Notes under the pieces: model-generated
What the model was told of the DNA's origin: nothing
The model's input: only the letters and a program-made list of their open reading frames with translations
Database searches by the model: none
Assembly: GCA_021234155.1 (NCBI GenBank)
Contig: JAJEKV010000001.1
Location: forward strand, 25,531,189-25,595,188
Length of the DNA: 64,000 nt
Direction: 5' to 3'
Source: Isoetes taiwanensis
Taxonomy: Eukaryota; Streptophyta; Lycopodiopsida; Isoetales; Isoetaceae
Shown: piece after piece, positions 1 through 28,086 of the stretch
How positions within the stretch are numbered: position 1 is the first letter of the stretch
How the letters are laid out: each line of letters opens with the position of its first letter
Translations under genes and position numbers: made by a program

Positions 1-500
1 TGAACGGGATCTTTGCTGGTGTCGGATCTGTGCCTGAACCACCTGGAGCAAGGAGAGTCTATGATTAACAATTACGGTGCCATTAGTCAAAACGAAGAAA
101 AGAATGGTGAAATCAAATTACAATAGAGAACATTCATTCCATATAACGGCATCCAATCACGCGAAAAGTAGTCTTTCTCGACTCGCGAGTCGAGAAAGGC
201 CCGGAAAAGTCAAAGTACAATCATTCCCATTAGAATATGGTTGCATCCAATCACACATGGAAGCATACAAATGGTTGCGTCAATGAGACAAGCAGTGCCT
301 TTCTTGACTCGCGAGTCGAGAAAGGCCCAGGAAACCCAATGTACAACCATTATCATAATAGATTATGGCTGCATCCAGTCACACAAACAAACATACAAAT
401 GGTTTCATCAACAGGACAAGCATGTCTTTCTCGACTCGCGAGTCGAGAAAGCCAGCGAAAACTCAATATACATGTATATTCATTACAAAACATAGTACAT
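1..500. repeat. Tandem ~126-bp units, each with the 24-bp palindrome
   Basis: Three palindromes at 174-197, 300-323 and 427-450 sit 126 and 127 bp apart. The DNA between them is also repeated: blocks with GCATCCAATCACACA-like text followed by ACAAATGGTT recur in each unit. The first and third palindromes are perfect 24-mers and the second has one mismatch. The array lies just downstream of the stop codon of the minus-strand gene that ends at 554, in its 3' flank. No convincing gene is seen here; small open frames that read through the palindromes are repeat artefacts. Confidence 0.85.
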
Positions 501-553
501 TTCTTCACGTTTCTTTACAATATTCACACAATTTGACTATCTGAAAGCGGAGG

Positions 554-1405
554 TCACTCTTCTTGATCACCAAAATATTTGTCGTCCATAGCTTTCATGA
601 TCGCTACTCTGCTCGGATCGGGTTCCTTGAGGCTCGGATAGTTCGTAATCACATCGGCCACAAGAATGGCAAAGAGGGATTCCGCCAAGACAGGACAAAG
701 TCCGAAAGACAGCCACTATCCGTCTCATACTCTTCTGGTCGATAAGTCTTAGCAATGATTGTATTTTGCGAGTTATGATAGCACTTGTAGGCGGAGTCAT
801 CTATGATCAGCGTGTTGTGTTTGCCAAAGTCCGGGAATTGTTCATAAACCCTGTCCAGCCTTTTCACCATAATATGCTTCCCCTTTGTGATGGCTGGATC
901 GAGGTCTGACACATGCTCGACCCTTTCGCTTCCCCAAACAAACTTGAACTTCAAAACTGGAAGGCCGAGAACACCAAGAACATTGACAATATTTTTCTTT
1001 GCCATACAAGACCATATGGCCACTTCGAATCCCCGTTCCAGGCACCATTTAACAATTTCCTTTGCTCTAGGCCTCGGATACACGATTTTATGCTCCGTTT
1101 TCGTCGGGATCTGCGAGGTGTTAAGCTCAGGGACGTCTTTATCGTGGTATACTGCAGCTAATACTCCATTGACGTCAAATATTACAAGCTTGGTTGGACC
1201 AGCTGGATCCCAGTTGGAGTTTGGCTCTGACCATATTTCCGGTTCATCGGGATCCATATGCGGGATCATTATTTTGTCAGCTCCTTTCTGGCTGCCCGCA
1301 ATGTCTTCTTGCTCTTGATTGTCTTTGGGGAGTGCATTGTCCTCCTCGCGACGTGAACCGCCACTAGATATTGTCAATGATCCGGAGTCGTTGACTTCGA
1401 TCTCC
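554..1405 (-). CDS. Exon 5, FCP1/NIF-type HAD phosphatase domain
   Basis: The acceptor CATTTCAG joins in phase to exon 4. The domain shows the HAD signatures in order: LVIFDVNGVL (nucleophile Asp in the DxNG form typical of plant NIF/FCP1-like proteins), a YPRPRAKEIVKW helix, VAIWSCM (motif II Ser), a Lys-rich stretch KGKHIMVKRLD (motif III) and LIIDDSAYK (acidic motif). These imply a phosphatase acting on phosphoprotein, although the canonical DxDGT second Asp is replaced by Asn. The frame shifts near 667-690. In the new frame a plausible C-terminus (ITNYPSLKEPDPSRVAIMKA and onward) runs to a TGA at 556-554. Confidence 0.6.
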
Positions 1406-1440
1406 CTGAAATGATGAGAGATGTCAGATAGGAAACGAGT

Positions 1441-1513
1441 TTTCTCGACTCGCGAGTCGAGAATGGAAAAAAAAGTTAGTCCAGAAAGGTTTCTCGACTC
1501 GCGAGTCGAGAAA
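1441..1513. repeat. Two palindromes in the 133-bp intron 4
   Basis: Copies at 1441-1464 (perfect 22-bp core) and 1490-1513 (perfect 24-mer) fill more than a third of this small intron (1406-1538). The half-site is TTTCTCGACTCG. Confidence 0.9.
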
Positions 1514-1538
1514 CACCGAGAGAGCAAAGTGAACTCAC

Positions 1539-3151
1539 CTCAATCTCAGATTCTCAAGAATTTGTTCCGCAGCATTCTGGTCTAAACCTTCGACATTCTC
1601 TTCTCCGTCATGTTTCTCTCCTTCGCTCTCAGGTTTGTCTTCGTCATCATCGTCCTTACTGCTTCCATTTGTCTTCCTCCCTTTGAAATGCTCATGAAGC
1701 AGATCCAGGTATGACTGAATGGTTTCAACCATGTCCTTATTTCCAACCACGGATATAGGTTTCATTCCATAAAGCATAGCCCCCTGAGAGAACAGGCCAT
1801 TCATGTACCACTCGCATACAATTTGATCTTCCTCGACCAAGCTGGTTATGAAGTACTTGATAACTCTTGGCCGGATAGGAATTCTATGTATAGGACCTGT
1901 CGCACCATCATTGCTGACTTTGTCCATCGATGGCACATCCTCCATAAATCTGCCGCCCTTCCAGGGTTCCATCTGCTCTTGAGAAATCATGAACCTGTCG
2001 AGATAATGATGTTCGCTAGACCACCACTTGTCCAGGTCTACAGCCGATCTTGAAACCAAAACCAAAACTATATTGGCAAAGCTTGGTGCCTTCGGCAAGC
2101 CAAGTCTACACTCATGTTCAAGTTCGTATATGGAGTACAAGATCTTGTTGGTGAAGTTAATATCAGCTGCCCATTGGGAGACAGCAGTTGTCTGATTGCC
2201 CGGCATGCAAAAGACAAGGAAACTGAAAGTATCCAGGTCGGTCATGTCCAGACACGTCTTGTATACCACTGCTCTATGTCAGCTTTGTCATAAAAAAGGG
2301 TGGGGTCTTTGATCTTGTTGATGACAAATAGTTCCACGGGCCCAGGTGCCAGTTCCAGACCACCAAATCCCTTGTGTCCCAATGTTATCAGAAATGGAGG
2401 GGAGCTATCATCGGCCTTAAATGGGACCACCCCGAATCCAAGCTTCCTCTTCAGAATTGCCATAGCACGTTCAGGGAAGGGAAGGGTTTTGACGTTACGC
2501 TTTAGCTTGGTGTTGATGTAGGGTTGACATAGACGGTTCAATTCCTTCATGTCTTCCTCATCAAGGGCAGCCTTTTCCTTGTAATAATCAAAGTCATGGT
2601 ATTCATTGGAAGCAACATTGCAGAACTCCGTGATGCCTTCTTCCAACGCACGCCGTCTCTTTAGGACTGTGGCATAATCCTTTGCGTCCTGCATTTTTGA
2701 GCTTCTACTTTTCCTTAGCAGGATTGTTCCATCCAGGATTCTGCCCTGTAGATCAAGCGTTTCCTTGTCGGTCAGGCCCTGTATCCTTTTCATAAATTGC
2801 CTGTCGAACAACTTTGGGTCCGGCCTGCATGGAAATTCTCCATTGCTGTCCTTCAGCTTGCCTCTTGTCCATTGAGCCCATATCTCAGTCCATTTCTCCC
2901 AGACCGCATCAGTGCTAAGAATGAGGTCATATTGGTCTGAGAGAGACTCCCTGCCCTTTCTTGGTGTTCTCTTCTTCTTTTCCTCTTCATCCTCCCCCTC
3001 ATCATCTTCCTGGCCTTCCAGCAGAACATATCTGCAGAGTGACTCAAAGGTCTTCCACTTATCCGAGGGAGCCCTGTTTCCTTTAGGACGCTGAGGACAA
3101 CCCAATGCTTTCCACTGTTGCCGAGCGTGTATGATCTGGTCAGGATACGGG
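1539..3151 (-). CDS. Exon 4, degenerate DNA-methyltransferase-like region
   Basis: The exon starts at a TGCAG acceptor (3152) and ends at the strong donor GTGAGT (1538). It first encodes a charged region with a very acidic run (EGQEDDEGEDEEE). Its second half contains RPRVIKYFITSLV followed by VCEWYMNGLFSQGAM. This is positioned like the K-P-x-x-L...D-P-F-x-G-S-G-T-T end of beta-class amino-methyltransferases, but the DPF-GSGTT residues that bind S-adenosylmethionine are absent, so an enzyme is unlikely. Two long frames overlap at 2242-2269 with no room for an intron, so the reading frame shifts there. The tail is acidic (DDDDEDKPESEGEKHDGEE). The methyltransferase assignment is inference. 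Confidence 0.45.
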
Positions 3152-3217
3152 CTGCATTCAGTAAATGTCCCAATGTTAGAGCATGGAAGTAAACACTAAA
3201 TAGAAGGATGCAGGGGG

Positions 3218-3938
3218 TTTCTCGACTCGCGAGTCGAGAATACCCACAAGGAGAGGAGAAAACATAGGAGAGTCAAGGCCAGAGCGAAAGCATCGTGCAT
3301 TCCCAAATCTTTGCTTTCACGCCTCTTCGAAATATAAACTAAGCGACATTGCCCGAAGAGGCGGGGAAAGAAAGATTGGAAAAGCTCGATGCTTTTGCTC
3401 TTCAGCCATTAATCCCCAATGTTCTCTCTTTTACCCTTGGGTTTCTCGACTTGCGAGTCGAGAAAGTGAGAGGTTTCTATTCAAGGGACTTTCTTCTCGA
3501 CTCGTGAGTCGAGAATACCCTCGGGAGAGGAGAGAACATGGTGCGAGAGTGAAGGCCAGAGTGAAAGCACCGCTCATTCCCAAATCCTTTCTTGCCGCGC
3601 CTCTTCGAACGATGCAACTTAGAATAGAAACTAAGCGACATTGCCCAAAGAGGCCGAGGAAGAAAGGATGGGAAGGCTCGATGCTTTCAGTCGTCGACCA
3701 TTGATCTCGAATGTTCTTTACCGCCCCGGGGTTTCTCGACTCGCGAGTCGAGAAAGTCCCTTTAATGTCTAATTTCCTTTTACTTAAGTGGGTTTTCTCG
3801 ACTCGCGAGTCGAGAAAGCTCCGCATCCTTTGATTTTTCTGTGTTCCCCTGGCTTTCTCGACTCGCGAGTCGAGAAACCCCAGTGAAAATCCGGAAATGA
3901 TAGGATGCTAGGGCTTTCTCGACTCGCGAGTCGGGAAA
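3218..3938. repeat. Seven palindromes in intron 3, with ~235-bp and ~61-bp units
   Basis: Copies are at 3218-3241, 3442-3465, 3494-3515, 3732-3755, 3794-3817, 3854-3877 and 3915-3938. Three are perfect 24-mers and the rest differ by one base or at the outer base. The segments 3218-3442 and 3494-3732 are diverged copies of one another (both carry GAGAGGAGA, AAACTAAGCGACATTGCCC and GCTCGATGCTTT), each bounded by palindromes. The last four copies are spaced 62, 60 and 61 bp. The whole cluster is inside intron 3 (3152-3962). Confidence 0.9.
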
Positions 3939-3962
3939 CCACCGAATCAGAGAGTTATTTAC

Positions 3963-5103
3963 CTTATGTAGCTGGCACTCGCTGCTATTGTGTTCTGGCA
4001 GTGGCTAATGCTGGCCAGCTCGGTTGCTGGCGTCTCCGCTGAAAGAACTCTGCACTCTCGCTTGGCATATCTATCCTTGATCCTTTGCGGCACCTCCTTC
4101 TCCGTCTGCAATACTTGCGCTGCCCTCACTGAATGCTGACCGTCTACTACCCAGAACCGGACGTCTTTTCCCTTCAGGTCTTCCTCAGACTTCCAGCTGA
4201 ACAACTGACCGGTCGATCTGCTGAAAGGTATGACATCCGCAGGCATTGGATCTGCAACAGGATGTCGCACCATCAGGTTCAGAATCTCCAGCATGTGTGC
4301 TGGATTAAATTCCCTGTGGTTGAACAAGACGGCTTCTCCGGTGCAAACCTTCAGGCGTCTGATGTCCAGCAGCAGCTTGTGTGATATTCCCAACGGATAA
4401 TACTGAGCCAGCCGCTCCATTTTCTGTGCCCCTCTCTGTGAAATCCTGATCTGCTCATCTGGATCCATTAATGGGGAGTCGACCATATCTTCGTCTGCTT
4501 CATCATCTGATTCCTCTCGTGTGATGTCATCTGCATCTGAGGTCCTGTCCGGAGATTTTTCTTTATGAACCACAACTTCCCTTGTAACTGCCGAGTGCTG
4601 TAGAGTCTTCAGCACACTGGAAGTGAAGCTCCCCGTGTTGAACAGTTTTTCCCTGACTCTGGAAATCTCCATTCCAAGCTCCCTGGATGTTAGGGTTCCG
4701 GCCTCCTTCATCCTTTCCAGATCCTTCCACCCAAGGTTTTGACAGTTTAAAGGCGCCGGCCTTTTGTCGGTGCCCTTCGCCTTGCTCATTGAAGAGTGAG
4801 AATAATTTGAAACTGATAATTTCTTCGTGTGGTAGAACTTACTCTTCTGGCAGTCTTCCACATACATTGTTAGATGCTTCGAATCTGGCGCAGAGACGGA
4901 GAGCACAACGCCGACCTTCTTGTACTTGTCTCCGGAGCTCTTCTTATCCCTTTGGTGGAGAAACAGATCTTTCTCCTTCCCACTTGTTGATACCTCGACA
5001 TACCACCAAGAATCTGCTGGTGTGTCAAGAAGCTCTGTCTCCAATCCCTCGATGACGAAGAACGGAGTTCGGCCAGTGATCACTAGTGAGTCCGTGGTGA
5101 ATG
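3963..5103 (-). CDS. Exon 3, ParB-like DGQH domain
   Basis: This long exon encodes about 380 residues. The first third is a beta-rich region of unknown family. The middle is acidic (EESDDEADEDMVDSP). The last third has the block FWVVDGQHSVRAAQVLQ, which matches the conserved DGQH(R) loop of ParB/DGQHR-type domains that use this motif in nucleotide binding or hydrolysis. A His/Asn-rich helix (ISHCQNT) follows. The exon ends in AG before the donor GTAAAT. Family membership rests on the one strong motif plus its setting in front of a methyltransferase-like domain, an order common in phage and mobile-element proteins. Function in a plant is unknown. Confidence 0.55.
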
Positions 5104-5166
5104 CTGCACTTCCAAAGGATGGATCAGTAAAGGTATTCCAAGCAAAGAAAAAACCTCAGAGCTCAC

Positions 5167-5326
5167 CGAGCTTTTGTCTTTTCCTCTTGCTTTTTTGCCG
5201 CTAGAACCGACTTCCCGCTCCGGCCTTTCTTGGGCCGGAGTCGTCATGTCTGTATGCCCCCGCATCTTCTTCCTGCTCGAACCCTTCTGTAAATTAAGCC
5301 TCCTCCGCGCGTTGGAGGTTTTAGGA
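5167..5326 (-). CDS. Exon 2, basic linker
   Basis: The acceptor (pyrimidine run, then ACTTGCAG) is strong and the donor is GTGAGC. The exon encodes about 53 residues rich in Lys, Arg and Ser, with stretches such as RRRLNLQKGSSRKK and GKKARGKDK. This suggests a nuclear-localisation or nucleic-acid-binding linker. The following intron would be only 63 bp, and its acceptor (GTGCAG at 5109-5104) leaves exon 3 one base out of frame, so this junction is a suspected lesion or a misplaced border. Confidence 0.45.
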
Positions 5327-5639
5327 CTGCAAGTAAAAAAGGTCGGGCGTGTTCTTAAATTTGATTTAAGGACATACAATCATTTAAGAAAAAAAGCGGG
5401 CTAAGGATACAAAGACGGTTTTAGCCCGCCCAAACACCATTTCAAAATTGAATCACATCCAGGGACTTAGTGAGCGCAGTGTAGCTTATCTTCACTGCGG
5501 CATTGGCGACTTAGAGTTGGGAGGCGAGCATCGACCGTAGTTTACTTCCTGAATGGCGCACGACGCTGGGAAGCTCCTCACAAAGTAGCTTTGCTCGTGT
5601 ATTTTTCTAACCGCCTTATTGCAAGTAGTTGATTTGATC

Positions 5640-5851
5640 GATGAGCACGGAGCTAAGGTAGCAAGCGAGAGGAGCCGCTGTGCACGGAATGCTACACTGC
5701 AGCGCCATGGAACGGGGATACACAAGAATCGCATTGATACAAGTGTTAGATGCGAATGCACTCTTGATGAGACCGACAGAAGAAGCAAAGACTCTCGGTG
5801 AAGCTGCGGGATCTGTCATACAATGGCCCAAGGAATTACTGCCTGAAGAGG
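5640..5851 (+). pseudogene. Exon-like fragment resembling a DUF8039-type transposon domain
   Basis: On the plus strand, opposite to and inside intron 1 of the flanking gene, a short open stretch reads VHGMLHCSAMERGYTR, then IALIQVLDANALL, then LGEAAGSVIQWPKELLPEE. It ends at a strong donor GAG|GTGAGT at 5851. The order VHG - V-V - LG-A-GS-I-WPK resembles the DUF8039 module found with plant CACTA (En/Spm) elements. No other part of such an element is visible, so this is a stranded exon or relic. It is identified from pattern only. Confidence 0.35.
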
Positions 5852-6118
5852 TGAGTTTCAGAGATGCCTGTTATTTTGTGTGTAGAACATGCCGTCCGTG
5901 CTTAGATCATGGGACTGCTCATAAGCTCGACGGATTTAATGTTTCCTTGTCGAGCATTTTTCAGCTTTGAGAGATGAATTACTCTCTGGGTTGAGATGCC
6001 TAAACACGAAACAATGGATCGGGGGTAAACGTGAACAGTTCAGTTTTAGGTGTGTTCTTTCTTGGAATGTTTTCTTCGAATGTTGTATATAGATCAGGCT
6101 AGGTCTAAGGCCCCTCCT

Positions 6119-7225
6119 GTGGTTAGTCGGAGAGGCCTCCACCCAGTCGGAACCACTCCTCTTCGCAATATTCGAGGAAGATGGTTCGAAGGAGAGTGGC
6201 TCAGACATGCTAGAGGCACTTGGGACTAAAAACAGGAGAATACAAAATGCTTAGTTGTAGAGGCCTGTGCTAAGACCCAAAGGCCTGCAGACAGTCAGGG
6301 CCACTTCCCTTCGCAATATTCGAGCAATATAGTTTGAAGGAGAGTGGCTCGGAATCTCTGCGGTTTGGACAATGCAGGGCCGGGCATTGCTATGTGGGCG
6401 GGCTAAAGGGATTCTCGACTTGGCGAGTCGAGAATGCAAGTGTTAACTTCTGTATGCATTCTCGACTTCGCAAGTCGAGAATGCGAACAGCCAGTTCGGG
6501 CTTCGGTGTTTCCACGTGGTTAGTTGTAGAGGCCTCCACCCGGTCCGAGCCCCTCCCTTTGCAATATTCGGCGGATGGTTCGAAGGAGAGTGGCTCGGCG
6601 GATTGAGGCCGCTTCGCGACCATACCAGGGAGAATTGGGCTGGCTAAGGGATTCTCGACTTGCAAATTCGAGAATGCAAATGTTAACTTCCTGTGCATTA
6701 TCGACTGCATGAAGTCGAGAATGCCATAATATCGAGAACTCCAGATAGTACACATGGAGTGCTGGCTGGTTTAAAGGCATTCTCGGCTTCATGAGCGAAA
6801 TCTGGAACAGCTTTCTTGTGGTTTCCACGTGGTTAGTTGTAGAGGCCTCCCACCGGTCCAGAGCCCCTCCCTTCGCAATATTCGACGAAGATGGTTCAAG
6901 GAGAGTGGCTCTGACTGGGTGGAGGCCACTGCACCATACACGGAGAATTGGTCGGTTAAACAATTCTCGACTTGCGTCGATGAGAATGCAAGTGTTGGTT
7001 TGTTTGCCCCATTCTCGACTCATGCAAGTCGAGAATGCCTTAGCCATCGAAACTCGGATAGTACACATGGAGTGCGGCTGGTTAGGGCATTCTCGACTTC
7101 ATGAGCCGAGAATGCGCATGCCAGCTCGCGGGTTTCCCCGGGTTAGTTGTAGAGGCCTCCACCCAGTCCGAGCCCATCCCCTTCGCAATATTCGACGAAG
7201 ATGGTTCGAAGGAGACGGTCTCTGA
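6119..7225. repeat. Five diverged ~310-bp repeats with an inner hairpin
   Basis: A block of about 85 bp containing TTAGTTGTAGAGGCCTCCAC, CTTCGCAATATTCGACGAAG and GGTTCGAAGGAGAGTGGCTC recurs at about 6119, 6253, 6515, 6829 and 7139. Within each block GAGCC-CTC-CTTCG and CGAAGGAG-GGCTC form an imperfect inverted repeat of about 15 bp. Between the blocks lie the diverged palindromes. The array is in intron 1 of the minus-strand gene. Confidence 0.8.
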
Positions 7226-7553
7226 CTGGGTAGAGGCCACTGCGACCATACACAGGAGAATTGGCTGGCTAAGAATTGGCTGCGACCGTGTGTGTGTGAG
7301 ATTAGCGGGTGTTGTCGACAGGTTAGAGGCATTGGCTAGGTATGACATTCTCAACTCGCGAGTCGAGAATGCAAGAATGGCGTTATTCTCGACTGGTGAG
7401 TCGGAAATCCCTCAACCAGCCAACAATCCAGAGTGTACATTCCCTGTTCTCGCCTCGCGAGTCGAGACATTCTCGACTCGCGAGTCGAGAATAAGGCCTG
7501 TACTTTCTTGATTGTTGGCAAGCTGAGGGATTCCCGACTCGCCAGTTGAGAAA
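6411..7553. repeat. Diverged palindrome cluster in intron 1
   Basis: About thirteen copies, mostly variants in which the centre has changed while the arms stay complementary. Examples are 6411-6435, 6456-6484 (13-bp arms GCATTCTCGACTT / AAGTCGAGAATGC around CGC), 6651-6674, 6696-6724, 6962-6986, 7010-7038, 7087-7115, 7348-7369, 7385-7406, 7447-7468, 7470-7491 (perfect 22-bp core) and 7530-7553. The variants keep dyad symmetry. Confidence 0.85.
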
Positions 7554-7913
7554 GCCGGGTTCCCTTCTGCACCTCTCCTGCAAAGGAGGATATGCTGTGA
7601 GTGAAATTTTCAATCTATATTGTAATTCCTATTTTAAGTTTCTGTAAAGCAATTTCATGCATAGTTATGTTCTTTTATGAATCATAGACAGTTCTCTTAC
7701 TGTTATGCAATACTTTTCTTCCTATCTCTCAGGATTCCTAAGTCGGGTGCTTGCCACTACTATTAGCATCTAAGAACACTGATGCCTGTACAAGGTATTC
7801 AAGTAAACAACAACTAAACACAAGAAAGCACAAACAGAAAGCAAATCAAAAGGAAAGCAGTGAAGCAGCTTTGAAACAGCAGACAAATGAGAAAATATTA
7901 AGAAAAAAAATAC

Positions 7914-7960
7914 CTGGGAGATTTGTTGGATGAGGAGGAAGCTGCAGAGTTCGATTCCAT
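7914..7960 (-). CDS. Exon 1 of the ParB-like/HAD gene
   Basis: This 47-nt exon starts with the ATG at 7960-7958 and encodes a short Ser/Ala-rich peptide, MESNSAASSSSNKSP, ending in AG before the donor GTATTT (phase 2). The start was chosen because a TATA box lies about 65 bp upstream and because the phase matches the polypyrimidine-preceded acceptor at 5327. The joined codon AG|T gives Ser and the frame continues into the basic exon 2. Intron 1 is about 2.6 kb and holds the palindrome variants and the 310-bp repeats. Confidence 0.5.
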
Positions 7961-8020
7961 TTTGCTACTGAAGCGTTTAAAAGCGAGAGTAAGGATTTGT
8001 CGGGCTGGAAAATGTATCGG

Positions 8021-8031
8021 GGTATATAAAG
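8021..8031 (-). promoter_or_regulatory. TATA box of the ParB-like/HAD gene
   Basis: On the minus strand the sequence reads CTTTATATACCCC, a good TATA element about 62 bp upstream of the ATG at 7960. This supports transcription start near 7990-8000 and a short 5' leader. Confidence 0.5.
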
Positions 8032-8033
8032 AG

Positions 8034-8764
8034 GCTCTAAAAAATAATAGGAGCAAAACACGAGAGTAAAGGAATTGCAAAAAAAACAATAAACAAGCAA
8101 AGATAAGAATATAAAAACTTACGTAAAAGGTTTCTCACTTCCTTCTTAGGAAGTACTTTCTGCTGGCTAACTCAAATTGAGCCAAAACCTCGTCGCTGGA
8201 TGCGTCGCGATCCGTCGACCACGCCTGATCATAAGATTGCTTCGAAATGCGAGAGTCGATCGAGCGCCAAAAGCGAACAGGGGAACAGTGGTTGCGGAGT
8301 CGAACAAGGGAAGACAAAGAGGAATGGAAGGAATAGGGGTCGCGGGAGAAGAGGTAGAGGGTGCAGTTATTTCTGGCTGCACCCTCGAACCTCGAAAAAG
8401 TGGCATTTATGACACTCCTAGAGTCACGTGTGTGGCATGCCATCCGTGACCTGGATTGCTGACGTGGCCATGTCAGATGTCGCTGATGAAGTGCCACGTC
8501 AGCACAGTCATGAATTCGGGGAAGCCAATGTTTTAATGGTTATAATGTTTTAATGCTTTTTAATGGTTAATGTTAAATGTTTTAATGTTAAATGTTAGTG
8601 TTAAAAGTTTTAATCTTTTTAATAATGTTTTAATGCTTCTTAATGGTTAATGTTAGCCAAGATTTCAATGGTTTTTAATGGTTATATGGTTTCTAATGGT
8701 TATATGGCTATAGTGCTCATTCATATATGGTTGTATGTGGTTTTAATGTGTGCTCTTTCATTCA
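8034..8764. other. Upstream region; TTAATG-rich low-complexity block
   Basis: From 8034 to 8510 the DNA is the upstream region of the minus-strand gene. It includes the inverted pair GAGGGTGCAG / CTGCACCCTC at 8356-8391 and several ACGTGG/CCACGT motifs near 8430-8500. No convincing gene is seen. From about 8520 to 8720 a run of TTTTAATGGTTAATGTTAAATG-type text is an imperfect short tandem repeat. CTTTCATTCAG at 8755-8765 looks like a splice acceptor for the next gene. Confidence 0.5.
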
Positions 8765-8765
8765 G

Positions 8766-11065
8766 GGAGCATGTGAGATGAGCAAAATGGAGCCAAGGAA
8801 GCCCAGCATAGGCCATTGCCCTAGGCTCCAATGGAGGAAGATGGGTTGCTTGTTGTTGCACCCTTGCAACGAGACGGTATTTGCAGAGGGCATAATAACT
8901 GCAGTTGATCCTTTTGATAGTGTGAATGATGAAAGGCTGGGAGATGATCATCTTGGAGTTGGCATTGTGAAGCTTCTTATCGAAGTTGATACAATCATGT
9001 CCCAGGGAAGCTCTAGTGATTGCATTGTGTGCTCTGGGTTGCTGGAGTCCCAAAGTCAGTCGAGATGGCCAATTAGATATATTACACACAAGAATGGTGA
9101 TAGTCTGGAATGCCCTACTGAACTACATACCCCAAGGCCCACCCAAGGCCATGTGGAAGATTTGGTGGTCGATGAGCATCCTTTGATCACAAGGAAGAGA
9201 CGCTATGTTTTTCATAAAAGGCATCCACGGGTGCCCAAGAGGCCTAGAAGTGACAAATATTTAGAAAGGATGGAAAGTATGGCCCCAACCAAAGAAAACC
9301 TAGAGGCAATTAGGGGACAAGAGTGTTGCAACCTAGATTGCACAGTGCAGTACAGTGTGGATGACCTCGTGCAGATAAGGTCCCAATACATTGGACAGCT
9401 TCAAAAAGATAGGATTAATTTCATCTACTCCTTGTGTAGGAATTCCAGCTATGATGAAAACACAGGAAGGCTACTATATCAATTGAGGGGCATGAAGGTA
9501 TGTATGAGAGCATTGAGATGGATTCTTGGGGTGAGCAAGTCTTCATTCTACGATCTTCTGGGAGCAGGTTAGAAAAGGGCACAGTTTGTTCCAACATGGT
9601 AATGCACTCACTTTGAAACCTAGAGCAAATACTCTCAAGGCCATTGCAGTCTTCGAGAGCTTTGTGAGATACATGTCTCAATCTATGCCCCACAAGTCGA
9701 AGGTGAACGAGCACGGTGTGCGAGTGGTGCAAAGGGTGTTGCCACAACACTATATCCAAAAGGAGTGCCTTAAAGAGGTCAACTCCATCCTAGAAACTAC
9801 TGGAGGTAGGCCTCTTTCTCAATCACATTTCAGCAAGTTATGGAGCACTCACTTCTCAGACGTGAGTGTCCTGCAACACATGCCATTCTCAAAGTGCAAC
9901 ACTTGCATTCAACTCAAGGATACACTTGCATCAACTGCAATAGAGAAAGAAAGAATGGCAATTAGGGAGCAGATCACCAAAGGGACCAAATATCATGTAG
10001 ACAGGTTGTATTGGCAAAGGTTTGGACAAATTTTTGTGTATAATTCATGATAAGATGGACCAACACAAGACTTTCTTGCCAAAGCTAGATCCTTTACCCA
10101 AGCGTTGTCAAAACGCTTTTCAGATGAAAGTAAGTCTGGCGGGTGTCTTAACACATGGTCATGGAACTGGAACATATGGTCATTTTGTGCTTGATCTATG
10201 GAGGGATGATCCAAACTTCCATGTGAGCTCTATTTTCAAGTGCTTGAGAACACTAGAGAAAGGATCGATAGAAGGGAGGAGGTATTCCCCTTCAAAGACC
10301 CATTTTGAGGCTTTGATGGATGATCAACCGCTTTGTTACCAAAGGCGGATAAAAAGCTCACATCCAAGGTGTCTAGTGAATCAAGGAGGACTTGGGATGA
10401 TTTCCCCTTACTTGAGAAACCACCGCCGAGAGGAGCTATGTGTTCAATTGGACAACCTGTTGGAAAGAAAACAAGAATAGATGGATGTTTGGGGCAATGT
10501 CATACTTGACAAAGAAGTGGGAGTATTCAAAGTTGTGAAAGTGGGATTCATGATGGTTGGGCATACGCATGATGATATAGATGGATTCTTTGGAACTTTC
10601 TCCACCAAGCTCAAGAGAGAAAACGTGACTAGTCTCCCTGAACTAATGGATGTGTTTGAGAGCTGCATTGACCCCAACCCAATGGCTTTCTTGATGGATG
10701 AGATTGCAAATTGGAAATCATTCGTAGAGGGATACTTGCTAGATGGTAAGGACCAGTTGACAGGACACACAAAGCCACTTCAGTTCAAGTTTTGGGTTAG
10801 GGATGGAATACCAATCATGCAATATAAGTGGAGACCAGGTGACAAGCTGTGGATGCCTGTACAAGGAATCGAGTTGTGGCAAAGGGGTGCTGCTGGTGAA
10901 GTTCTCATTCCTAAAGGGCAGCCAAAACCACTACCTCCCTTCAAGACTGTCAAAGACTCTAGCCAACTAAAGCACAATTTCATTATATATGGACTTTTTG
11001 CAAGTCCATATGTGTCTCAAATGGTAGCTAATGTTAAGAATACAGAGTTCCTAGGAGCAAAATAA
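8766..11065 (+). pseudogene. DUF7869-type transposase-like gene, N-terminal and catalytic part, frameshifted
   Basis: A reading frame begins after a splice-like acceptor and includes CCNLDCTVQYSVDDLVQIR and CMRALRWILGVSKSSFYDLL. This is the Cys-rich, activation-like N-terminus seen in DUF7869 proteins. After a one-base shift near 9560 it continues with a helical segment, then (second shift in a T-run near 10031) HDKMDQHK, LAGVLTHGHGTGTYGHFVLD, LCVQLDN and KVGFMMVGHTHDDIDGFF. The QLDN and VGHTHDDID blocks are the acidic-His signatures of the DDE-like core. A further shift follows QLDN near 10456 and returns near 10530. Such proteins are abundant in plant and animal repeats and probably derive from DNA transposons. 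The lesions make it inactive. The C-terminal part appears 4.6 kb downstream. Confidence 0.65.
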
Positions 11066-11699
11066 TGGAATATGTTAGCATGATTCCATTTTGAGGTGAC
11101 AAAATTAGGCAGGCCCAGTGCTACTGTTTGTCATATGGGCAAGGACTAGCACGTCCAACATAGACAAATGATGATGAAGAAAGGTGAAAGGAATCTTAGT
11201 TTGGGGGCCATATGTCCCAGATGACTACGACATCTACAAAATGTAGCGTATTGTGCACAACATGATGAAGAAGAACAACTTTGGGGTATTAAATTTTACA
11301 TAATTTCATTAAGATATCAGACAGTTTCCAAAGTTCCCAGATAGCAATTAAAAGTATAAAGCTAATGTTATTGACAATGTTAAAGTTTCAAATATCCATC
11401 TGCATGTTATGTGATTGCAATTCCTCATAGCTGGGAGATTATTCTAGGCTCTTATGGGAATAATGTTGTTTTCCTGCATATACTCATGTAAATGTTTGTA
11501 TTGTAATAGGTTATCGAGAGGGATATACAAGTGTGAAATTGGGCGACCGCCGTATTTAAGACTAGCTTCACGTCCGATGACAGATTTAATGTTGTGTAAG
11601 TGTGTTCCATAAAGGGACAATATACGAAAAGAATTCCATTAGATAAGATAAAAAAAGCAATAAGTAAAGAAAGTTTACAAATAATCCATTAACTATCTT
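11066..11699. other. No gene recognised
   Basis: The first 250 bases may be decayed coding sequence of the preceding transposase-like gene (a short stretch reads GPYVPDDYDIYKM). The rest is AT-rich with no recognisable gene. Confidence 0.4.
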
Positions 11700-11737
11700 A
11701 ACCTAACCCTAACCTAACCCTAATGGCTAACCCTAAC
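11700..11737. repeat. Short telomere-like CCCTAA repeats
   Basis: Four imperfect repeats of the type CCTAACCCTAA occur in a row. This is too short for a telomere and may be an interstitial trace or chance composition. Confidence 0.5.
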
Positions 11738-12390
11738 GGGAAGTATGGCAAGGGATTCGAGCTATGGCAGGGGCTATGGCTCACGATGCTTGCATGCAAT
11801 TTCATGGCGGCGGTTCAGGCAACGAGCTATGGTAGGGGATGCTTGCAGGAGACGAGCTATGGCAGGAGATTCTTGCAGGCAGTTTCATGGCGGCAGTTTT
11901 GGGCAATGAGCTATGGCAGGGGATGCTTGCAGAAGAAAGAAAACAGGAGGACGTCGTGATTTTCGATAGAACAGGGATGGATGTGCAGGGCCGGATTGCT
12001 GCAATAGAGGGTTTTGGAGCAGAGGCAGCACCGCAGCAGGGTCTTGTTTTTGCTCATCCAGTTTTCCTGATGGAACAAGTTTTGCTGCATTTGCATCCCC
12101 TGCTTCATCGAAGTTTGCCCTGCATTTGCTGGGACGATTCTTACTGCATCTGCATCCCTTGCTTCATCGAAGTTTTGTTTCTTTTACTTCAGAAATATCC
12201 TCTGTTTCATTTACAGGTGCGGTGGCTTTGGCAGAGAATGCTGGCTTTGCCTTCGGCAGAGAATGAGACTAATGCTGGCTTGGGCAGTGAATTTTTGGCT
12301 TCAACAGAGAATGAGACTAATGCTGGCTTCGGCAGTGAATTTTTGTTGTTTAGATCGGGCTTTTGGCAAAGTAACAGGGTTAACTAATAA
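11738..12390. repeat. Degenerate tandem repeats (AGCTATGGCAGG and GAGAATGAGACTAATGCT types)
   Basis: GAGCTATGGCAGGGGATGCTTGCAG-like text recurs about five times from 11755 to 11935, with variants such as GGCAGGAGATTCTTGCAG. A second type, AGAGAATGAGACTAATGCTGG followed by CAGTGAATTTTT, recurs at about 12255-12345. Open frames across these are repeat-driven and not supported as genes. Confidence 0.6.
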
Positions 12391-12599
12391 AGCAAAGAAG
12401 CTAACAAGGAGGTGAAATCAGATATGCTATCGGATGAAGCTATCAGATATGCTATCAGATATGCCTAATGCATGCATGATGAGTTCCAAAGATCAAATTA
12501 GGCAGGCAAATTGAGCTTGGATGACTGGTCTAAGAAAAAATGTGCCTTCATTCACCCATCGCACAAAAAAAGTGCATTACCGCAAAGCGCATTACATCA

Positions 12600-13005
12600 T
12601 GTCACCACCAAAATTGAAGCCCCACCAATTTCGATGCCCAGTATAAGAGAAATTGGTGAGAAAAATTGGCACAGCAAAAGTGCATTACAAAGCGGACATC
12701 ATGTTACCACCAAAATTGGGCGCCCGCCCAATTTCGATGCCCAGTATAAGAGAAATTGGTGAGAAAAATTGGCACAGGCAAGCAGACATCATGTTACCAC
12801 CAAAATTGGGCGCCCGCCCAATTTCGATGCCCAGTATAAGAGAAATTGGTGAGAAAAATTGGGCGCCCGCCCAATTTGGATGCCCAGGATAAGAAAAAAT
12901 GTGCCCTAGTTAAAAATGTGCCTTGCATGGAGAGATCGAATTACCACCATTATAATTGGCCACCATTATAATTGGGGAGGCAAAATTGGGCGCCCGCCCA
13001 ATTTG
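12600..13005. repeat. ~90-bp tandem repeats with a second palindrome family
   Basis: A unit containing CATCATGTTACCACCAAAATT and GATGCCCAGTATAAGAG is repeated from about 12600 to 12870. Copies at 12713-12734, 12803-12824, 12856-12877 and 12983-13004 contain a 22-bp inverted repeat: arms AAATTGGGCG and CGCCCAATTT around CC. A diverged copy is at 14424-14444. The first unit (12610-12632) carries a version with broken arms. No gene overlaps. Confidence 0.85.
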
Positions 13006-13830
13006 GATGCGTATTCTAAGGAAAAATATGCCAGGAATCAAGTTAAAAATATGCTTGGCAGATATCAAGAAGGATCAAGAAGGTCTGGCACAGGCAACCG
13101 CCCAATTTTTATATATAAATGACCTACAAGATATAAAAGTAAAGGTACTAAAAAAAATTTGCGCACATTATTTAGTTTCTTCATACATTTGTACTCAGTA
13201 TGCTAGATATCAGAATGCTAGATATAGATATCGTTTCGGACGACTCCGGAGCACACTTCAATCATTCATTCAACACTTTCCAATCTAAAAGATTTAATTT
13301 ATTGTTTCTCATGTCCATCAAACGTTTGAGTTAGCTCATGCTTCAATCTTTCATTTTTTATTTGATTATTATTATCATTATTCATGTGTTTGATGTCTTT
13401 TACCTAAGATGGTATCCTCCTCGGACTTTTAACATTTATCGTGCACATAATACCATCCTTTTAACATTTAATGCATGCCAAAATGCAAGGGAGATGTGGA
13501 CATCTATAGGAAAAGAATAGAAAACAATAAACAAAGGAGATGCGCCTACCTTTTGGCAGTCTTGAACATGAAAAAAACACTTCAAAATGTCTTCTAAATG
13601 ATAGGCGCCCTGCTGAAGGAGGACCACAGAATGGAGGAGGAAGAAAATATGATCTTGCACCTTCCAAATGAAGTCTTAACATGAGCAAAAACAAGTCCAA
13701 AAAGACTGCCTGCATGATGGACACGTGGAACGTAGTAAAAGGTATAGGGCATATTTAGTGGGCCCACCTTTTCATGAGCATTTCAAATTTCAAATTAAAG
13801 TGGCCACGTCGACCTTTCACGTGGTTGTCA

Positions 13831-13978
13831 AAATTCAAATTCAAATTCAAATTCAAATTTCCCCCCTCAACTCAATATTGCCTCCAGGCATCTCGCCATC
13901 TGTCATTGCAACCCTCAACTAGGCGCTTGTGGACGGCACTCAACTAGGCGCTTGTGGACGGCTCTCAACTAGGCGCTT
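13831..13978. repeat. AAATTC hexamer run and a 25-bp tandem repeat
   Basis: AAATTC is repeated about five times at 13831-13860. CTCAACTAGGCGCTTGTGG plus ACGGC(A/T) is repeated 2.6 times at 13914-13978. Confidence 0.85.
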
Positions 13979-14450
13979 TGCCTCCATAGCGTAAATTTTC
14001 GTGTTTTCATTAGTATGTAGATGCGCTAGTGTAATTCGCTAGTACTTCCATGTTTTGTTGCCATTTTCTTGCAATTCTAGAGTATTTTTAATGTAACTCT
14101 AATGTGTCATTCAGCATTCTGGATGACAAAAATCTAAGTACCCATGTTTCTGTAAGCTTATTACAGCCTGCAGTGACACGATGATCATGAGGTGATGAGC
14201 CCACCTGCAGGCTTGAAGATGAGGTAAGAGTTTTAAATCACATAACTAGTTGTGGTAGAGTTTGTATTAGACATGTGTAAATATTGTTGTTGTCAGATGA
14301 GGTGCTTGGAAACGAACATATGTGGCTCAGCACGCACCCAACTTCGTGGCCCAAAGTTGTTAGGCAAGTTGTTTGGGGGTCCAATTTGGAGCTTGCTGGG
14401 TGGGCGACAAATATGGGGAGCCCAAATGGGCGGACGCCCAATTTCGTGGC

Positions 14451-14452
<2 letters not shown>

Positions 14453-14485
<33 letters not shown>
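14453..14485 (+). repeat. Poly(A) tract, 33 A
   Basis: An uninterrupted run of 33 A follows a diverged copy of the AAATTGGGCG inverted repeat. It could be the tail of a retroposed sequence. The surrounding 13.98-14.78 kb shows no gene. Confidence 0.8.
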
Positions 14486-14487
<2 letters not shown>

Positions 14488-14782
14488 CTCTCAAATTGGG
14501 CCACCAATTTGGATGCACGAAATCCCAATTTGGGCTTATCAAATTGGGCTGAGGCTCAATCTCTCTCTTTCTCTCTGTTTTGTTTTATGCAATTTCACCA
14601 AGTTTTGATATAATTTTCATATGTGTTTTGTGTTTGGAAACGAGGCGAGCGCCCAATTTGTAATGATATATCGTTCGCTGATGTGCAGATATGAACACAA
14701 TGTAAGGGGTGTTTGAAGTCAGGGTCATACACTCTAGGAGCGGATAAATGCCCGTAAATAGAGGTATGGCATCACAATACCT

Positions 14783-15550
14783 TTGGAGAAGGGTTTTGTA
14801 TCCTTTGCAGATCCGGATATTACAGTATGTGACCTGCTTCTAGGATTGAATACTATGGGTGTGTTCGACACCCAAGGGTTCCATCTGCCTAGCAATCTCA
14901 ACATTCATTTTTGGACTATTTCGTTATATATGGACTACGACAATGACAAAAGTATATGTGCCATCCAAGAGTTGAGCTACCGGACTTTTTGACAAGAAGC
15001 TGAATTCATCGAAGTTGACACTATCTATTGTCCGTATACCGGCGGTCTCACTGTAAGAACATGAATGTCCATTTGACGAGCCATCCGTGAAGTTCTTACT
15101 GTGAGATTTCTCTCTTGCAACTGGACGATTCATTTGTACAAAACAGAAATAGGTATGTGATTTCATATCTTTTACATATTTCAATAACATGTGCACATGA
15201 TGATGATGATGAGAGGTTGACTGGGCACATTGGGCCTCTAGTTTTTGAGTTTGAGTGACCAGTCATGTACCACCAAAGCGTCAAGCCCTCACTGCGAGAA
15301 GCATTGGTCCCTGAAAAGATAAACCTATGCCCAGGTGATGTCTTGTGTCTAACGTGGGAGATGGAAGCCAATGACTGCTAGTGACTACATAGAGATAGAG
15401 ACTATCGACTATGCTTGGGAACCGTCAAACAAGAAGAAGATACCCGATACTATCACGATATACGTGCAGCTGTGAAGGCATATGCAGTACTCGCAGGGGA
15501 TGTCAATTAGTGTATGAAAAAGAGTCATTCATGCAAGTGCATTAAAAAAT
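14783..15550 (+). other. No identifiable gene; possible decayed coding sequence
   Basis: Short open stretches (for example about 15250-15380, reading REALVPEKINLCPGDVLCLT) have codon-like composition but do not resemble a family I know. They lie just ahead of the C-terminal part of the transposase-like gene and may belong to the same decayed element. Confidence 0.3.
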
Positions 15551-15600
15551 GGTCCATAAATTCAGGTATTGTCCAAAATTAATGAAATTGTGCTTACTAG

Positions 15601-16186
15601 TGAAGGGCATCAAGGATTACATAATGCACTGGGATGATGTGGGAGGAAGCAAAGAGACGGGTTCTTGCCAGAGTCAAGATGGGAGGGTTCTCAAGGAGCA
15701 AGCACGTCTAAGAATGTTCACTTGGGTCCTAACAAGGGTTCCAAGTGGTTTGTGGGAAGTAAGGCCTCAAAGCCGAAGTGGTTTGATCTTCCTGAGTGGG
15801 ATCCCTTTGAGGACATCAAGGAAGGATACTTTGTGCTAGTAAGGCCTGATGATGAGGACTGTCCAATATGGTTAGGGGTGGCACTCTCTGATGTAACCAC
15901 CACTATGCCTGATGGAGAGGAGTTGCGTCCTGGATTCCAAATTCAATATTGGGAGCCCATTGGGAGACACAAGAAGGGCAACTTGAAGGAGCAATACACC
16001 GACTGCTGGAAGAAGAAGTGGAGGGCAAATTATGCTGATCCTCAAAGGAGGGAATTGGTGGAGTGTGTGGTATGGTCATATCCAAGTTCTCACACTGCAA
16101 AGGACAACACACACAAGATCCCAAAAAGGGAGATGGACAAAGCCATGAGCAACCTCCATGCTATATCATTGTATGAGGGTAGATAA
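15601..16186 (+). pseudogene. C-terminal part of a DUF7869-type protein
   Basis: The open frame from 15665 encodes GYFVLVRPDDEDCPIWLGVA, then FQIQYWEP, then CWKKKWRANYADPQRRE. The pattern 'FV.V(R/K)P.D...P.W(I/L)G...QYW' is the C-terminal SH3/chromo-like module of DUF7869 proteins. It ends at a TAA (16184-16186). A short piece in another frame (15601-15665, KGIKDYIMHWDDV) appears to precede it after a frameshift. It lies in the same orientation as the catalytic part at 8.77-11.07 kb and is probably its separated 3' end. Confidence 0.55.
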
Positions 16187-16330
16187 TATTGAGAAGCTTG
16201 AAAACTTTCTCAACTAGTGGTTTGTAAAATTTATGAGGAAAACAAGTAATCCAATTCTTTGTGTGTGATGTGTAATTCTATTCAAGCAATCAATTCAGAT
16301 TTTTTTTTTTATGGTGTGTGAGTCCCATTT

Positions 16331-17996
16331 TGTGACGTTCCAGCACAGTATACGGTCCCAGGACGTATACTGTACTGCCTCGTCACGCGTACACGCCACC
16401 CCGACTGACGTGTACGCCGACGTGTAGCCAGGCTAGTAGCCCCTAGGGGGCAACTTGCTAGGTATGTGCATTTCTTATTAATGTGCACATGCACATTTAT
16501 TTGGGTGCACACATTTCCATGTGGGCACATTTAGGTGCACACATTTCCATGTGGGCCCATTTAGGTGCACACATTTCCATGTGGGCACATTTGGGTGCAC
16601 ACATTTCCATGTGGGCACATTTGGCCACCTAGCCATTAAAGGCAAGTGGGCCCATTTCCAATTATCCCACATGCCTAAAGGGGATAATTGGAAACCCTAG
16701 CCTAACCCCTTGCCTATTTAAGTAGGAGAACCCTAACTTGGCCAATTTTCGTTCCTAGGGTTTTAGAGCTCTGTTTTGGCTGCCCCAGGAGTCAAAACCG
16801 CCTCCCAGACTCTGTCTGAGAGAATGGCACCATTAGTTTCCCTTAGTTTGAGCATTTCAGCAGGATGGTCGAACTCAGATCAGGAGGAGGAACTCAAGGA
16901 TCAGGTATTTAGGCAATTTAATAGCTTAAACCCTCTTTTAGTCATCGAACCAGTAGGTTTAGCCTATTAAATTGCCCATAGCAGCCTTCTAGATCTCTAG
17001 ATACCAGACTCTAACTAAAGAACCTAACTCTATGATGTAGATTAGATCTTGTTCTTTAGTTCTTCTGTGATGTATATGGATGATGTATCTCTATGAACTC
17101 CTTGTATTGGGAAGGGGGGTAGAGACCTAAAGCTTTGTAGTTGATGCTCCTAGAGTAGCCTCTCTAGCACACTGTAGATTCGGCCTGTGCACAAGAACCA
17201 CACCTGGTTGTGGGTGAAGGGGCCAGACTGGCTAAGAAGGAGGTTCGTGTCCTGACTCTTGAACGATCCCTCTGGCGTGTAAAGTCTACCGGGGATCACT
17301 GTGACTAGGTCTAATGGCTTGCCACTGAGTGTGGGCAGGGCATGGGCTCGACACCCGTGAAGTGGGGTTCACTTTTCATTGGGTTCAAGTCGAATAAGGG
17401 CAGTGGCCCTCTAGTCACCTCGAGTCAGCATGTAGATCTCTGGAGGGAGAGATCCCTACCTGCCCCATCGGAACTGGGGAGATGTAACCCAGGATATAGC
17501 CCCCTCGGCTATGTATCCGTGGGCTCTGATCAGTCCCAACACTTTTCAACCTACTCGCAAAGTGTGCACAGAGGGGCGTGATGGAGTGGACAACCCAATG
17601 CCATGTTCTTATGCCCGCCCGAGATCCATTGCCATGAATTCGGCCCGCAATGACCTCTCCTGAGACCCAAGCTTGTCACCCATCCCCGTATTCCGAGCCT
17701 TGGGTAGGATTTCCTATGTGTTGTCTTTGATCTTTGTCTATGCAGATATGTGGGAGACCATCCTTCGTGATGGTCATATGACGTTGATGTATGTACTACT
17801 GACATGTGTGTTTACGCTTCCGCAGCTACGTAGGCCCTGAGGGAGACGGGGTAAAATGACCCCTTCACTCTTCCCACTGGGACTCGTTACGGGTGCAGTG
17901 ATTGTGGAGGGCCCTGTATCAGTGTGGAGCTGGTATGGGGGATGAACTCCTGTTTGTATACGGTGCGGGCATCGTATACGAGTAGGGGACGTCACA
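16331..17996 (+). repeat. 5' LTR
   Basis: This is 1666 bp with TGTGACG at the start and CGTCACA at the end, a 7-bp inverted terminal pair. It holds four 30-bp tandem repeats (16504-16623, unit beginning GGTGCACACATTTCCATG), then a TATA-like CCTATTTAAGTAGG at about 16711-16725, the likely promoter. It aligns with the 3' LTR almost base for base except in the first 90 bp and in a patch at about 17520-17700. Confidence 0.9.
16711..16725 (+). promoter_or_regulatory. LTR TATA-like element
   Basis: CCTATTTAAGTAGG, preceded by an upstream 30-bp repeat array and followed by leader-like sequence, is the best candidate core promoter in the LTR. The same element is in the 3' LTR. Confidence 0.4.
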
Positions 17997-17997
17997 G

Positions 17998-18009
17998 TGG
18001 TATCAGAGC
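17998..18009 (+). other. Primer-binding site (tRNA-iMet)
   Basis: TGGTATCAGAGC begins two bases after the 5' LTR. It is complementary to the 3' end of plant initiator methionine tRNA, the common primer of plant LTR elements. Confidence 0.9.
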
Positions 18010-18119
18010 AATGTTCTTGGAGACCAAGAGCAAAGCACTGACCATGCTCCCAGTAGTACTAACTTGATAGGATCCTCAAACCTCGAGAAATGGGAAATTG
18101 TTTCTCATTTTTGTAGTAT

Positions 18120-18460
18120 ATGCTAAGCTAGTAACAGTTAAAGTGAATTAGTAACAATTAAAGTGAATTAGTAACAGTTAAAGACAAAGATTAGTGAGCC
18201 AAACAGTTAAAGACAAAGATTAGTGAGCCAAATAGGATGGTCTCACACATCGCGCCAGGACAGATAGATTAGTGAGCCAAACAGTTAAAGACAAAGATTA
18301 GTGAGCCAAATAGGATGGTCTCACACGTCGCGCCAGGACAGATTTTGAACACCTCAGTTAAAGACAAAGATTAGTGAGCCAAACAGTTAAAGACAAAGAT
18401 TAGTGAGCCAAATAGGATGGTCTCACACGTCGCGCCAGGACAAATTTTGAACACCTCAAA
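18120..18460 (+). repeat. Leader tandem repeats with GTCTCACACGTCGCGCC
   Basis: The unit AGTTAAAGACAAAGATTAG plus TGAGCCAAA is repeated several times, twice followed by GGATGGTCTCACAC(A/G)TCGCGCC (18240 and 18318) before the first complete hairpin at 18420. The array lies in the untranslated leader of the retroelement. Confidence 0.8.
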
Positions 18461-19528
18461 ACATGCCTGGGCGCAACGTGCGAGACATTGATTTGAAAAC
18501 AGTTTAAAGTGCGAGACATTGATTTGAAAACAGTTTAAAAAGTCAAAAATTTTAGAAAAGTAACTTGGTAATTCGAATTTCAGCCTAGGAATTAGCTAGA
18601 TTAGCTTTCCAATCTATTTGAACCTCATCTTAAAACAATTCCCACAGTAGCAGGAATTGAACCTCCCACCCACAGGGTTGAACCCCTCCAAACCCCCCCG
18701 TGCCAACCACTGAGGGCGGGCATCGTTTGTGTTTGAATTATAATTCTTAATTAGATTTAAGCTTTAATAATGTTGGATAATATTAATTGCCAAGCCTTAG
18801 ACTTAGAACCAAGACCCTTAAGCTAGATAGAGACAGCATCTCGATAGACACCAAGACTCCGATCGACATGACGCCAAGACCAAAAGAGTAATGCTCGACT
18901 TCCTCGACAAGGCTTAAATGCCCCTGAGGCCAAGGAGGCCGAAGGAAACAAGAAGAGGAGAGGGCAGAACGAGAGCGGGAGGCCAAGGGTCAAGAAGTAG
19001 CAGAGCAGAAGCGGGTCCAACATTTTTGAAGACTCAACAGCCCGCACAAGATTACCAAGGAGTAACTCTAATAAAGAAAGATATGCACTTAGCCAGTCAT
19101 ATCAAAGGAGAGCCTTATTAATTTCGTAAATGATAAAATTTGGTTTAATACAAAGTGTTTTAGAGTAAATTATAAGTGTATAAAGTTACTTAATTAAGTT
19201 GATTTAGTAAGTTTTAGCTTTTGTTGTCCTAGGCCAATTTGAGAGGATGTCTCACACGTCGCGCCAGGACAGAAAATGAAAAGTTCATTATCGGTCTGGG
19301 CGCAACGTGTGAGACCTTGCTGTGAGACCATGCCCCAAAAGTGCCCAAAACTGCTCCAAATCGACCAAATAAGGGGTCCATTCTGCCTAACTCGACGAGA
19401 TAAGTAGGATTAGACCCTTATATCACCCAAATTGGACAAGTTTAACCCATTTTGAGCCAATGTCTCACACGTCGCGCCAGGACAGATGATGAAAATCTCA
19501 TTTTCGGGCTGGGCGCAATGTGTGAGAC
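18420..19528 (+). other. Three nested hairpin modules in the retroelement leader
   Basis: Modules at 18420-18486, 19249-19315 and 19462-19528 share an outer stem: GTCTCACACGTCGCGCC pairs with GGGCGCAACGTGTGAGAC (small variants). Each also has an inner 6-bp stem that differs in sequence yet stays perfectly complementary: TTTTGA/TCAAAA, AATGAA/TTCATT and GAAAAT/ATTTTC. Size and spacing within the modules are constant (about 67 bp). This is seen directly. A role in RNA packaging, dimerisation or translation is inference. Confidence 0.75.
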
Positions 19529-19927
19529 CTCCAAATTTTGAACCTCTATAACTTGAGCTGCAGAGCTCCAAATCGCCTGAAATTTGTTGTGTTAGGACCG
19601 TTAGACAGCCTAGAATCCATTTATGACCTCAAATTAGGATAGAAATGTCAAACCCCATCTCAAAATGACCAAAGTTGCTCAAACCCTTGAATTGTCTTTC
19701 CAAACTGTGTTTGTCTGTAGATAGAAGCATACCCCATTAGTAGCTCGCAAGTATTGCTCTCGGCTCAAATCTGATGCCTTACTCCTAGATAGAAGTGCCC
19801 AAGAACACCCCTTTGTTATAGTCATCTAGACCTCAGCATAGCAACCCAAGTCCAACTCTTCGTACATCACCTCTGCTCATGCCCAAGGCGTAAACCCTGA
19901 CCTAATTCTGCGTCCTTCTAATAGAGT

Positions 19928-28081: not shown

Positions 28082-28086
28082 CATTT

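Follow-up and report, generated by a model that had tools for sequence, protein, structure and literature searches.

The 64,000-nucleotide stretch of Isoetes taiwanensis DNA analyzed here (assembly GCA_021234155.1, contig JAJEKV010000001.1, positions 25,531,189 to 25,595,188 of the forward strand; hereafter the window) contains near its left edge a set of 24-bp palindromes in and around a gene with a VDGQH motif. Both belong to a DNA transposon that is present in many copies and has two divergent genes, the accessory gene that carries the motif and a transposase gene. The palindromes, or dyads, belong to this transposon family and are conserved in it. The original prediction had described them as confined to one ParB-like host gene. 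Confinement is true of the window, but 2,686 perfect copies are present genome-wide, and the supposed host gene is itself part of the transposon. Two exons of the accessory gene gave 5,531 and 4,770 first-look candidates, of which 104 and 125 were scored, and have matches at no fewer than 109 and 125 places in the genome, respectively, which rules out a host gene carrying repeats of its own. Judged from sequence, there is an even chance that the dyads are sites of an element-encoded binder that serves its own family, with the accessory protein as the likeliest one.

In the window, a strict search for the 24-mer (up to 3 mismatches) gives 15 matches and none in 100 shuffles. A loose search (up to 6 edits), in which the weakest matches are uncertain, gives 25 dyads in four groups and one more weak dyad, the 26th, to the left of the window. 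Six are perfect 24-mers, at 174, 427, 1490, 3732, 3794 and 3854, and three others, at 1441, 3218 and 7469, have a perfect 22-bp core. These searches reproduce the earlier counts of about 25, six and three. The first group consists of three dyads in the 3′ flank of the accessory gene (174–450), within repeat units of 126–128 bp. The second lies in a predicted minus-strand intron of 133 nt (1406–1538) that holds two dyads at 1441–1464 and 1490–1513. The third lies in a second predicted minus-strand intron (3196–3962) with seven dyads at 3218, 3442, 3493, 3732, 3794, 3854 and 3915 (spanning 3218–3938), the last four spaced by 60–62 bp. Both introns are predictions with splice sites placed by eye from the sequence. 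The fourth group, of about 13 dyads at approximately 6411–7552, occupies the region between the divergent genes (6406–7553). These are mostly of the form ATTCTCGACT-N4..6-AGTCGAGAAT and lie partly in tandem units of about 313 bp. The earlier count of 13 for this group stands, but its assignment to intron 1 need not hold, as the region separates two genes. The dyads were also said to avoid exons and to stop after 7.6 kb; we find none across 8501–64000 of the window and 0 of 106 dyads (up to 5 mismatches) in the coding spans of six element copies chosen without regard to palindromes.

The ends of the transposon are AAGTCGTATTTAATTAAAGTGG and its reverse complement with few changes, and are common to six copies that were compared together with their flanks. 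The five copies other than that of the window are free of nested inserts and measure 11.8–13.2 kb, and the main blocks of the window copy are about 80–96% identical to them. Among 11 elements with both ends read, eight have perfect 4-bp target duplications (ATAG, TCAT, ATTG, AAAG, TAAA, AATT, ACAG and CAAG). The window copy and L046 show no more than an approximate duplication, which requires that terminal bases have mutated, and copy A lacks one. Membership of an ordinary known repeat would have counted against the original prediction. The palindrome is part of a repeat, but that repeat was matched to no described element in the literature searched. About 150–170 bp inside the left inverted repeat, at the same place in all six copies, lies a degenerate dyad of which one half-site (GCGAGTCGAGAA) is intact.

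Genome-wide, exact transposon ends number 1,188 and 1,210 for the two orientations, and dyads in which perfect 9-bp arms enclose a 4-nt centre of any sequence number 6,563; reversed controls for these and for the perfect palindromes all give 0. The palindrome is linked to this gene family, but the family is a transposon. An exact end is found within 13 kb for 33 of the 50 perfect palindromes listed, always with the palindrome on its inner side and never on its outer side; a random site would do so in about 1.9% of cases. These 50 palindromes form 34 clusters, which come from the start of the listing (contigs C1–C114) and are not a random sample of the genome. Nineteen are covered over 57–100% of their length by the full element, and the other 15 lie in related sequences that form one group by mutual similarity, even with the dyads masked. 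An element end is seen in 12 of these 15, seven by terminal similarity in the fetched 1.6 kb and nine by an exact end within 13 kb, while L021, L035 and L041 are assigned to the family from similarity alone. All 34 clusters belong to one transposon group, with no sign of independent insertion. A parasitic, free-standing palindrome, one of the earlier suggestions, is contradicted in this sample because the dyads travel with the transposon ends.

Complete non-autonomous elements of 703 bp and, in three cases, about 4 kb have the same ends as the full element (blastn, 1e-10) and carry dyads. The three longer ones have 168–241 bp and 65–68 bp of the ends in common with it and hold 6–8 dyads each. 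Their array is placed about 0.8–1.3 kb from the left end, and in most full copies the 3′-flank dyads lie at about 0.9–1.2 kb. A separate family for the variant palindrome TTTTCGACTTCGCGAAGTCGAAAA was considered and rejected, with only 4 copies in the genome. In the non-autonomous locus L064, two different perfect 28-bp palindromes stand side by side at about 1160–1187 and 1226–1253, with centres of 6 nt and 2 nt between the arms, a pattern that suggests symmetrisation.

The dyads are more constrained than their surroundings. In the aligned left part of the six copies, dyads marked on a copy that is itself excluded from the comparison have a between-copy mismatch of 0.044 (0.045 with marking on any copy), compared with 0.125 in the noncoding flank and 0.101 in the exon encoding the NLI-interacting-factor-like (NIF) phosphatase domain. 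CpG retention is 0.913, 0.688 and 0.750, respectively. The arms are separated by 4 nt in 56 of 61 dyads of the introns and 3′ flank and in 47 of 58 intergenic ones. Among 297 distinct dyads (up to 2 mismatches per arm; 2 chance matches in shuffled loci), complementary mirrored double changes number 22, against a shuffle mean of 7.7 and a maximum of 16 in 1,000 trials; some changes are inherited in common by related copies, and the presence of a perfect palindrome was the reason for fetching many of the loci. A looser set of 442 dyads, with 116 chance matches in shuffled loci, points in the same direction (75 against a mean of 31.6 and a maximum of 50). Intergenic and intronic dyads differ in their outermost pair, A...T in the former and T...A in the latter, with the symmetry kept.

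The arrays themselves change by tandem-repeat turnover. The spacers of the last intron array are of three types that repeat as one unit. Copy D has a duplication of this three-spacer unit (about 182 bp), and a deletion in copy B fuses two adjacent dyads. Inversion of a full spacer between palindromes was not seen in the six copies; the only inverted spacer matches are two weak ones, with scores of 17–18, between different spacer types.

The accessory gene is read from the minus strand. Its VDGQH exon (3963–5155) has an open frame of 398 aa with an uncertain 5′ boundary and is high-copy in the genome. The next exon (1539–3195) has a frameshift near 2242–2278 in the window copy, and several other copies have longer open frames of about 500–630 aa for it. 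The last exon (652–1405) encodes the NIF domain (PF03031, E=9.9e-10). The ratio of nonsynonymous to synonymous substitution rates is 0.13–0.38 in 10 pairs from five copies, indicating purifying selection; these copies were taken among the best matches, which favours intact genes. All 12 accessory-gene loci examined carry dyads, namely six close copies, five divergent copies with 63–71% protein identity (tblastn; L055 is 67–70% identical at the DNA level) and copy F. Four other DUF7869 loci, with transposases 31–35% identical, have no dyad in 9.9 kb, and nothing in them matches the accessory gene in any of its parts. These four are the top profile matches in 9.9-kb stretches, neither randomly chosen loci nor whole elements. 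Such a comparison of paralogous loci had been proposed earlier, and its outcome favours the association but is suggestive, not proof, since one lineage is set against four loci.

Conserved sequence, fixed arm spacing and retention in noncoding DNA and in short derivatives suggest that the dyad is the site of a dimeric protein, needed in cis. Each dyad (TTCTCGACT-N4-AGTCGAGAA) would be recognized by a DNA-binding protein from the element itself, symmetric and probably a dimer. The co-occurrence of the dyads with its gene makes the accessory protein the leading candidate, and we infer it to be the most likely binder. The noncoding arrays would let it load onto every copy of the family, autonomous or not. 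Loading may keep the copies expressible and mobile, with silencing marks removed or blocked, or transcription activated, in a mode resembling that of VANC on VANDAL21 but through an unrelated protein. Of the suggestions in the original prediction, a self-recognising protein–site pair is still the best reading and retains its link to the gene family, but gene and sites reside in a transposon and not in a host gene.

Several observations weigh against this assignment. Searches of Pfam and PDB sequences (both E up to 10) and of NCBIfam (E up to 1) gave no ParB match, and the VDGQH exon has neither a phage match nor a relative in the prokaryote collection. The ParB identity proposed earlier is therefore unsupported by profile and PDB sequence searches; “ParB-like” is a reading of the motif only, and a remote relation to ParB may exist. 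A single-sequence structure model of the accessory protein is uninformative (mean predicted local distance difference test score 40.7). The association again concerns a single transposon lineage and four top-scoring loci lacking the gene. Of 26 listed elements with both exact ends, 16 hold no perfect palindrome and 10 do; three of the 16 (N4, N19 and F) were examined and have 6–9 imperfect dyads each. Copy F (12.06 kb, same ends), in which the accessory gene is diverged or decayed (VDGQH exon 37%, tblastn), retains 9 dyads, 2 of them with perfect arms, compared with 17–23 and 8–14 in the six copies. The motif is visibly unchanged down to 63% protein identity, so no covariation of site and protein is seen. 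The gap fraction is 0.22 in dyads and 0.19 in the flank; with indels equally common in both, whole sites come and go. The transposase or a host factor could also be the binder.

If the transposase were the binder, the dyads would be the internal counterpart of subterminal repeats and would serve transposition directly. We consider this rather unlikely, although it is the strongest of the alternatives. Non-autonomous elements retain both ends and dyads, the half-site near the left end is common to the six copies, and the ends begin with AAGTCG where the arm contains AGTCG, a 5-bp likeness that may be chance. The repeats bound by TnpA in En/Spm, and those of Ac, are likewise short, bound by an element protein and retained in non-autonomous copies, but they lie in the outer few hundred bp, whereas the dyads here are mostly 0.9–8 kb inside. 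Measured from the left end, most are 0.9–8.3 kb in; none was found in the transposase half, and the four other DUF7869 loci are free of them. A host transcription factor whose sites were captured to drive expression of the element is improbable. Arrays flanking both genes, with one between the divergent promoters, and the strong constraint on the dyads would suit it, but of the four dyad groups three belong to introns or the 3′ flank of the accessory gene, and every one of the 34 sampled clusters falls within the transposon group, so no use of the motif by host genes is seen.

Slightly less probable again is a neutral palindrome, multiplied in tandem within the transposon and homogenised by gene conversion or hairpin-mediated template switching. 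The number of dyads per array differs between copies, and the unit duplication in copy D, the fusion in copy B and the frequency of indels, as high in dyads as in the flank, are all of the kind it predicts; symmetric variants such as TTTTCGACTTCGCGAAGTCGAAAA fit symmetrising repair. This explanation does not account for dyads that stay alike while the noncoding flank and spacers diverge, for coding sequence that is free of them, or for L055, where the sequence and not symmetry alone persists. Intronic RNA hairpins, acting in the control of splicing or as a source of small RNAs, come last and are very unlikely. Every dyad could form a stem and symmetric changes are in excess, but only 9 of the 25 window dyads are in predicted introns; 16 are elsewhere, and non-autonomous elements carry dyads too. 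One-sided changes in the introns and 3′ flank, though few, are not biased towards wobble pairs (8 C>T and 7 G>A), and the 4-nt arm spacing is tighter than a loop needs. The splicing role suggested earlier has little in its favour.

The proposed binding by the accessory protein can be set beside several known systems. In bacterial ParB–parS, inverted-repeat sites cluster close to a gene whose protein has a DG.H-type motif. Here too palindromic sites are clustered near the gene, but no ParB profile matches, the sites are inside a eukaryotic transposon and no partition function is implied. No ATPase match was obtained among the open frames scanned, ParA itself not having been searched for. VANDAL transposons are Mutator-like. 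In VANDAL21 of Arabidopsis, according to the excerpted text of Hosaka et al. 2017 (PMC5735166), VANC21 binds a 9-bp motif that is dense in noncoding parts of the element and causes loss of methylation, and tandem repeats of the motif occupy introns of VANC21 and VANB21 and the region upstream of VANA21. The element described here likewise combines an accessory gene with a dense short noncoding motif in introns and upstream regions, and in both cases the motif regions are fast-changing tandem repeats and the motif is rare in other elements (for VANDAL21, as excerpted from PMC5735166). The VANC-type pattern of a noncoding motif array with tandem-repeat dynamics is thus present. Unlike the VANC21 motif, which in the same excerpts is 9 bp in one orientation, the site here is a 22–24-bp dyad. 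VANC has the domains DUF1985 and DUF287, and neither gives a Pfam match in the accessory-gene open frames; here there are a VDGQH/NIF protein, a DUF7869 gene and a 4-bp target duplication.

The Sola-1 transposon Sola1-1_Ec32 of Ectocarpus is described in excerpts of PMC12477816 as having a ParB-like/methyltransferase gene on the strand opposite the transposase, with domains assigned by InterProScan or HHpred, and the proposal made there is that such accessory proteins bind the transposon that encodes them and modify it. Both elements, as far as the excerpts describe the algal one, are giant DNA transposons with an accessory gene antisense to the transposase (PMC12477816). Sola1-1_Ec32 has a ParB-like domain and a DNA methyltransferase, whereas ours has the VDGQH motif only and a NIF phosphatase; a candidate cis site is available here, and none is named in those excerpts (PMC12477816). 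The report of a ParB-like accessory gene in a brown-algal Sola-1 transposon makes the binding hypothesis directly testable. By analogy, and tentatively, since we think it doubtful as a whole, the VDGQH/phosphatase protein and its parS-like arrays may form a VANC-like anti-silencing self-recognition system that evolved independently from a bacterial-type DNA-binding domain, and the dyad would be the first cis site put forward for the ParB-like accessory proteins of algal transposons. The family supplies a concrete candidate target, in that a single dyad occurs thousands of times alongside a conserved gene, and non-autonomous derivatives exist naturally. If the binding is real, it would extend sequence-specific self-recognition beyond VANDALs to a different protein and provide a compact dimer site for tethering.

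Other database matches of the accessory gene are weak and unrelated (DUF6371, RXT2_N and a cold-shock domain, E 0.1–0.2), and its middle exon matches an IS1182 model with E=0.008, far under the cut-off. The transposase gene (8697–11065, plus strand) is broken in the window copy into open reading frames at 8697–9572, 9535–10050, 10001–10480 and 10481–11065. It matches DUF7869 (PF25273) with E=1.2e-22 and 8.4e-5, the second under the curated cut-off. Only DUF7869 and no Mutator-like transposase was found in the plus-strand frames scanned. A probable 3′ exon of this gene (15638–16186, plus strand) has no Pfam match; its DNA is conserved in other copies, and its protein identity in copy F is 70%. 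The Sola superfamily has a 4-bp target duplication. The duplication of our transposon fits Sola, while the best match of its transposase is DUF7869. This genome has 9,907 first-look DUF7869 candidates, at least 150 of them (all those scored) over the cut-off, and 14 control genomes gave no match. With so many candidates, the genome seems rich in a little-described DUF7869 transposon type; the name DUF7869 was not met in the literature searched.

The window copy starts 741 bp to the left of the window (left end C907:25530448) and stops at about 28139. Its left and central part occupies 1–16330, and its right terminal piece (28087–28139), whose insertion edges were located, includes the right inverted repeat CCACTTTAATTAAATACGAC at 28118–28137. 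Between them, a nested long terminal repeat (LTR) retrotransposon (16331–28081) interrupts the right end of the transposon and is flanked by its CATTT target duplication at 16326–16330 and 28082–28086. Its LTRs are identical at 1560 of 1583 aligned bases (98.5%) in a local alignment of 16399–17996 with 26494–28081. Elsewhere in the window, positions 42981–45816 hold a tandem array in which a 469-bp unit with internal 36-bp repeats recurs about six times, and an open frame at 57229–58014 resembles, by eye, the reverse transcriptase of plant long interspersed nuclear elements.

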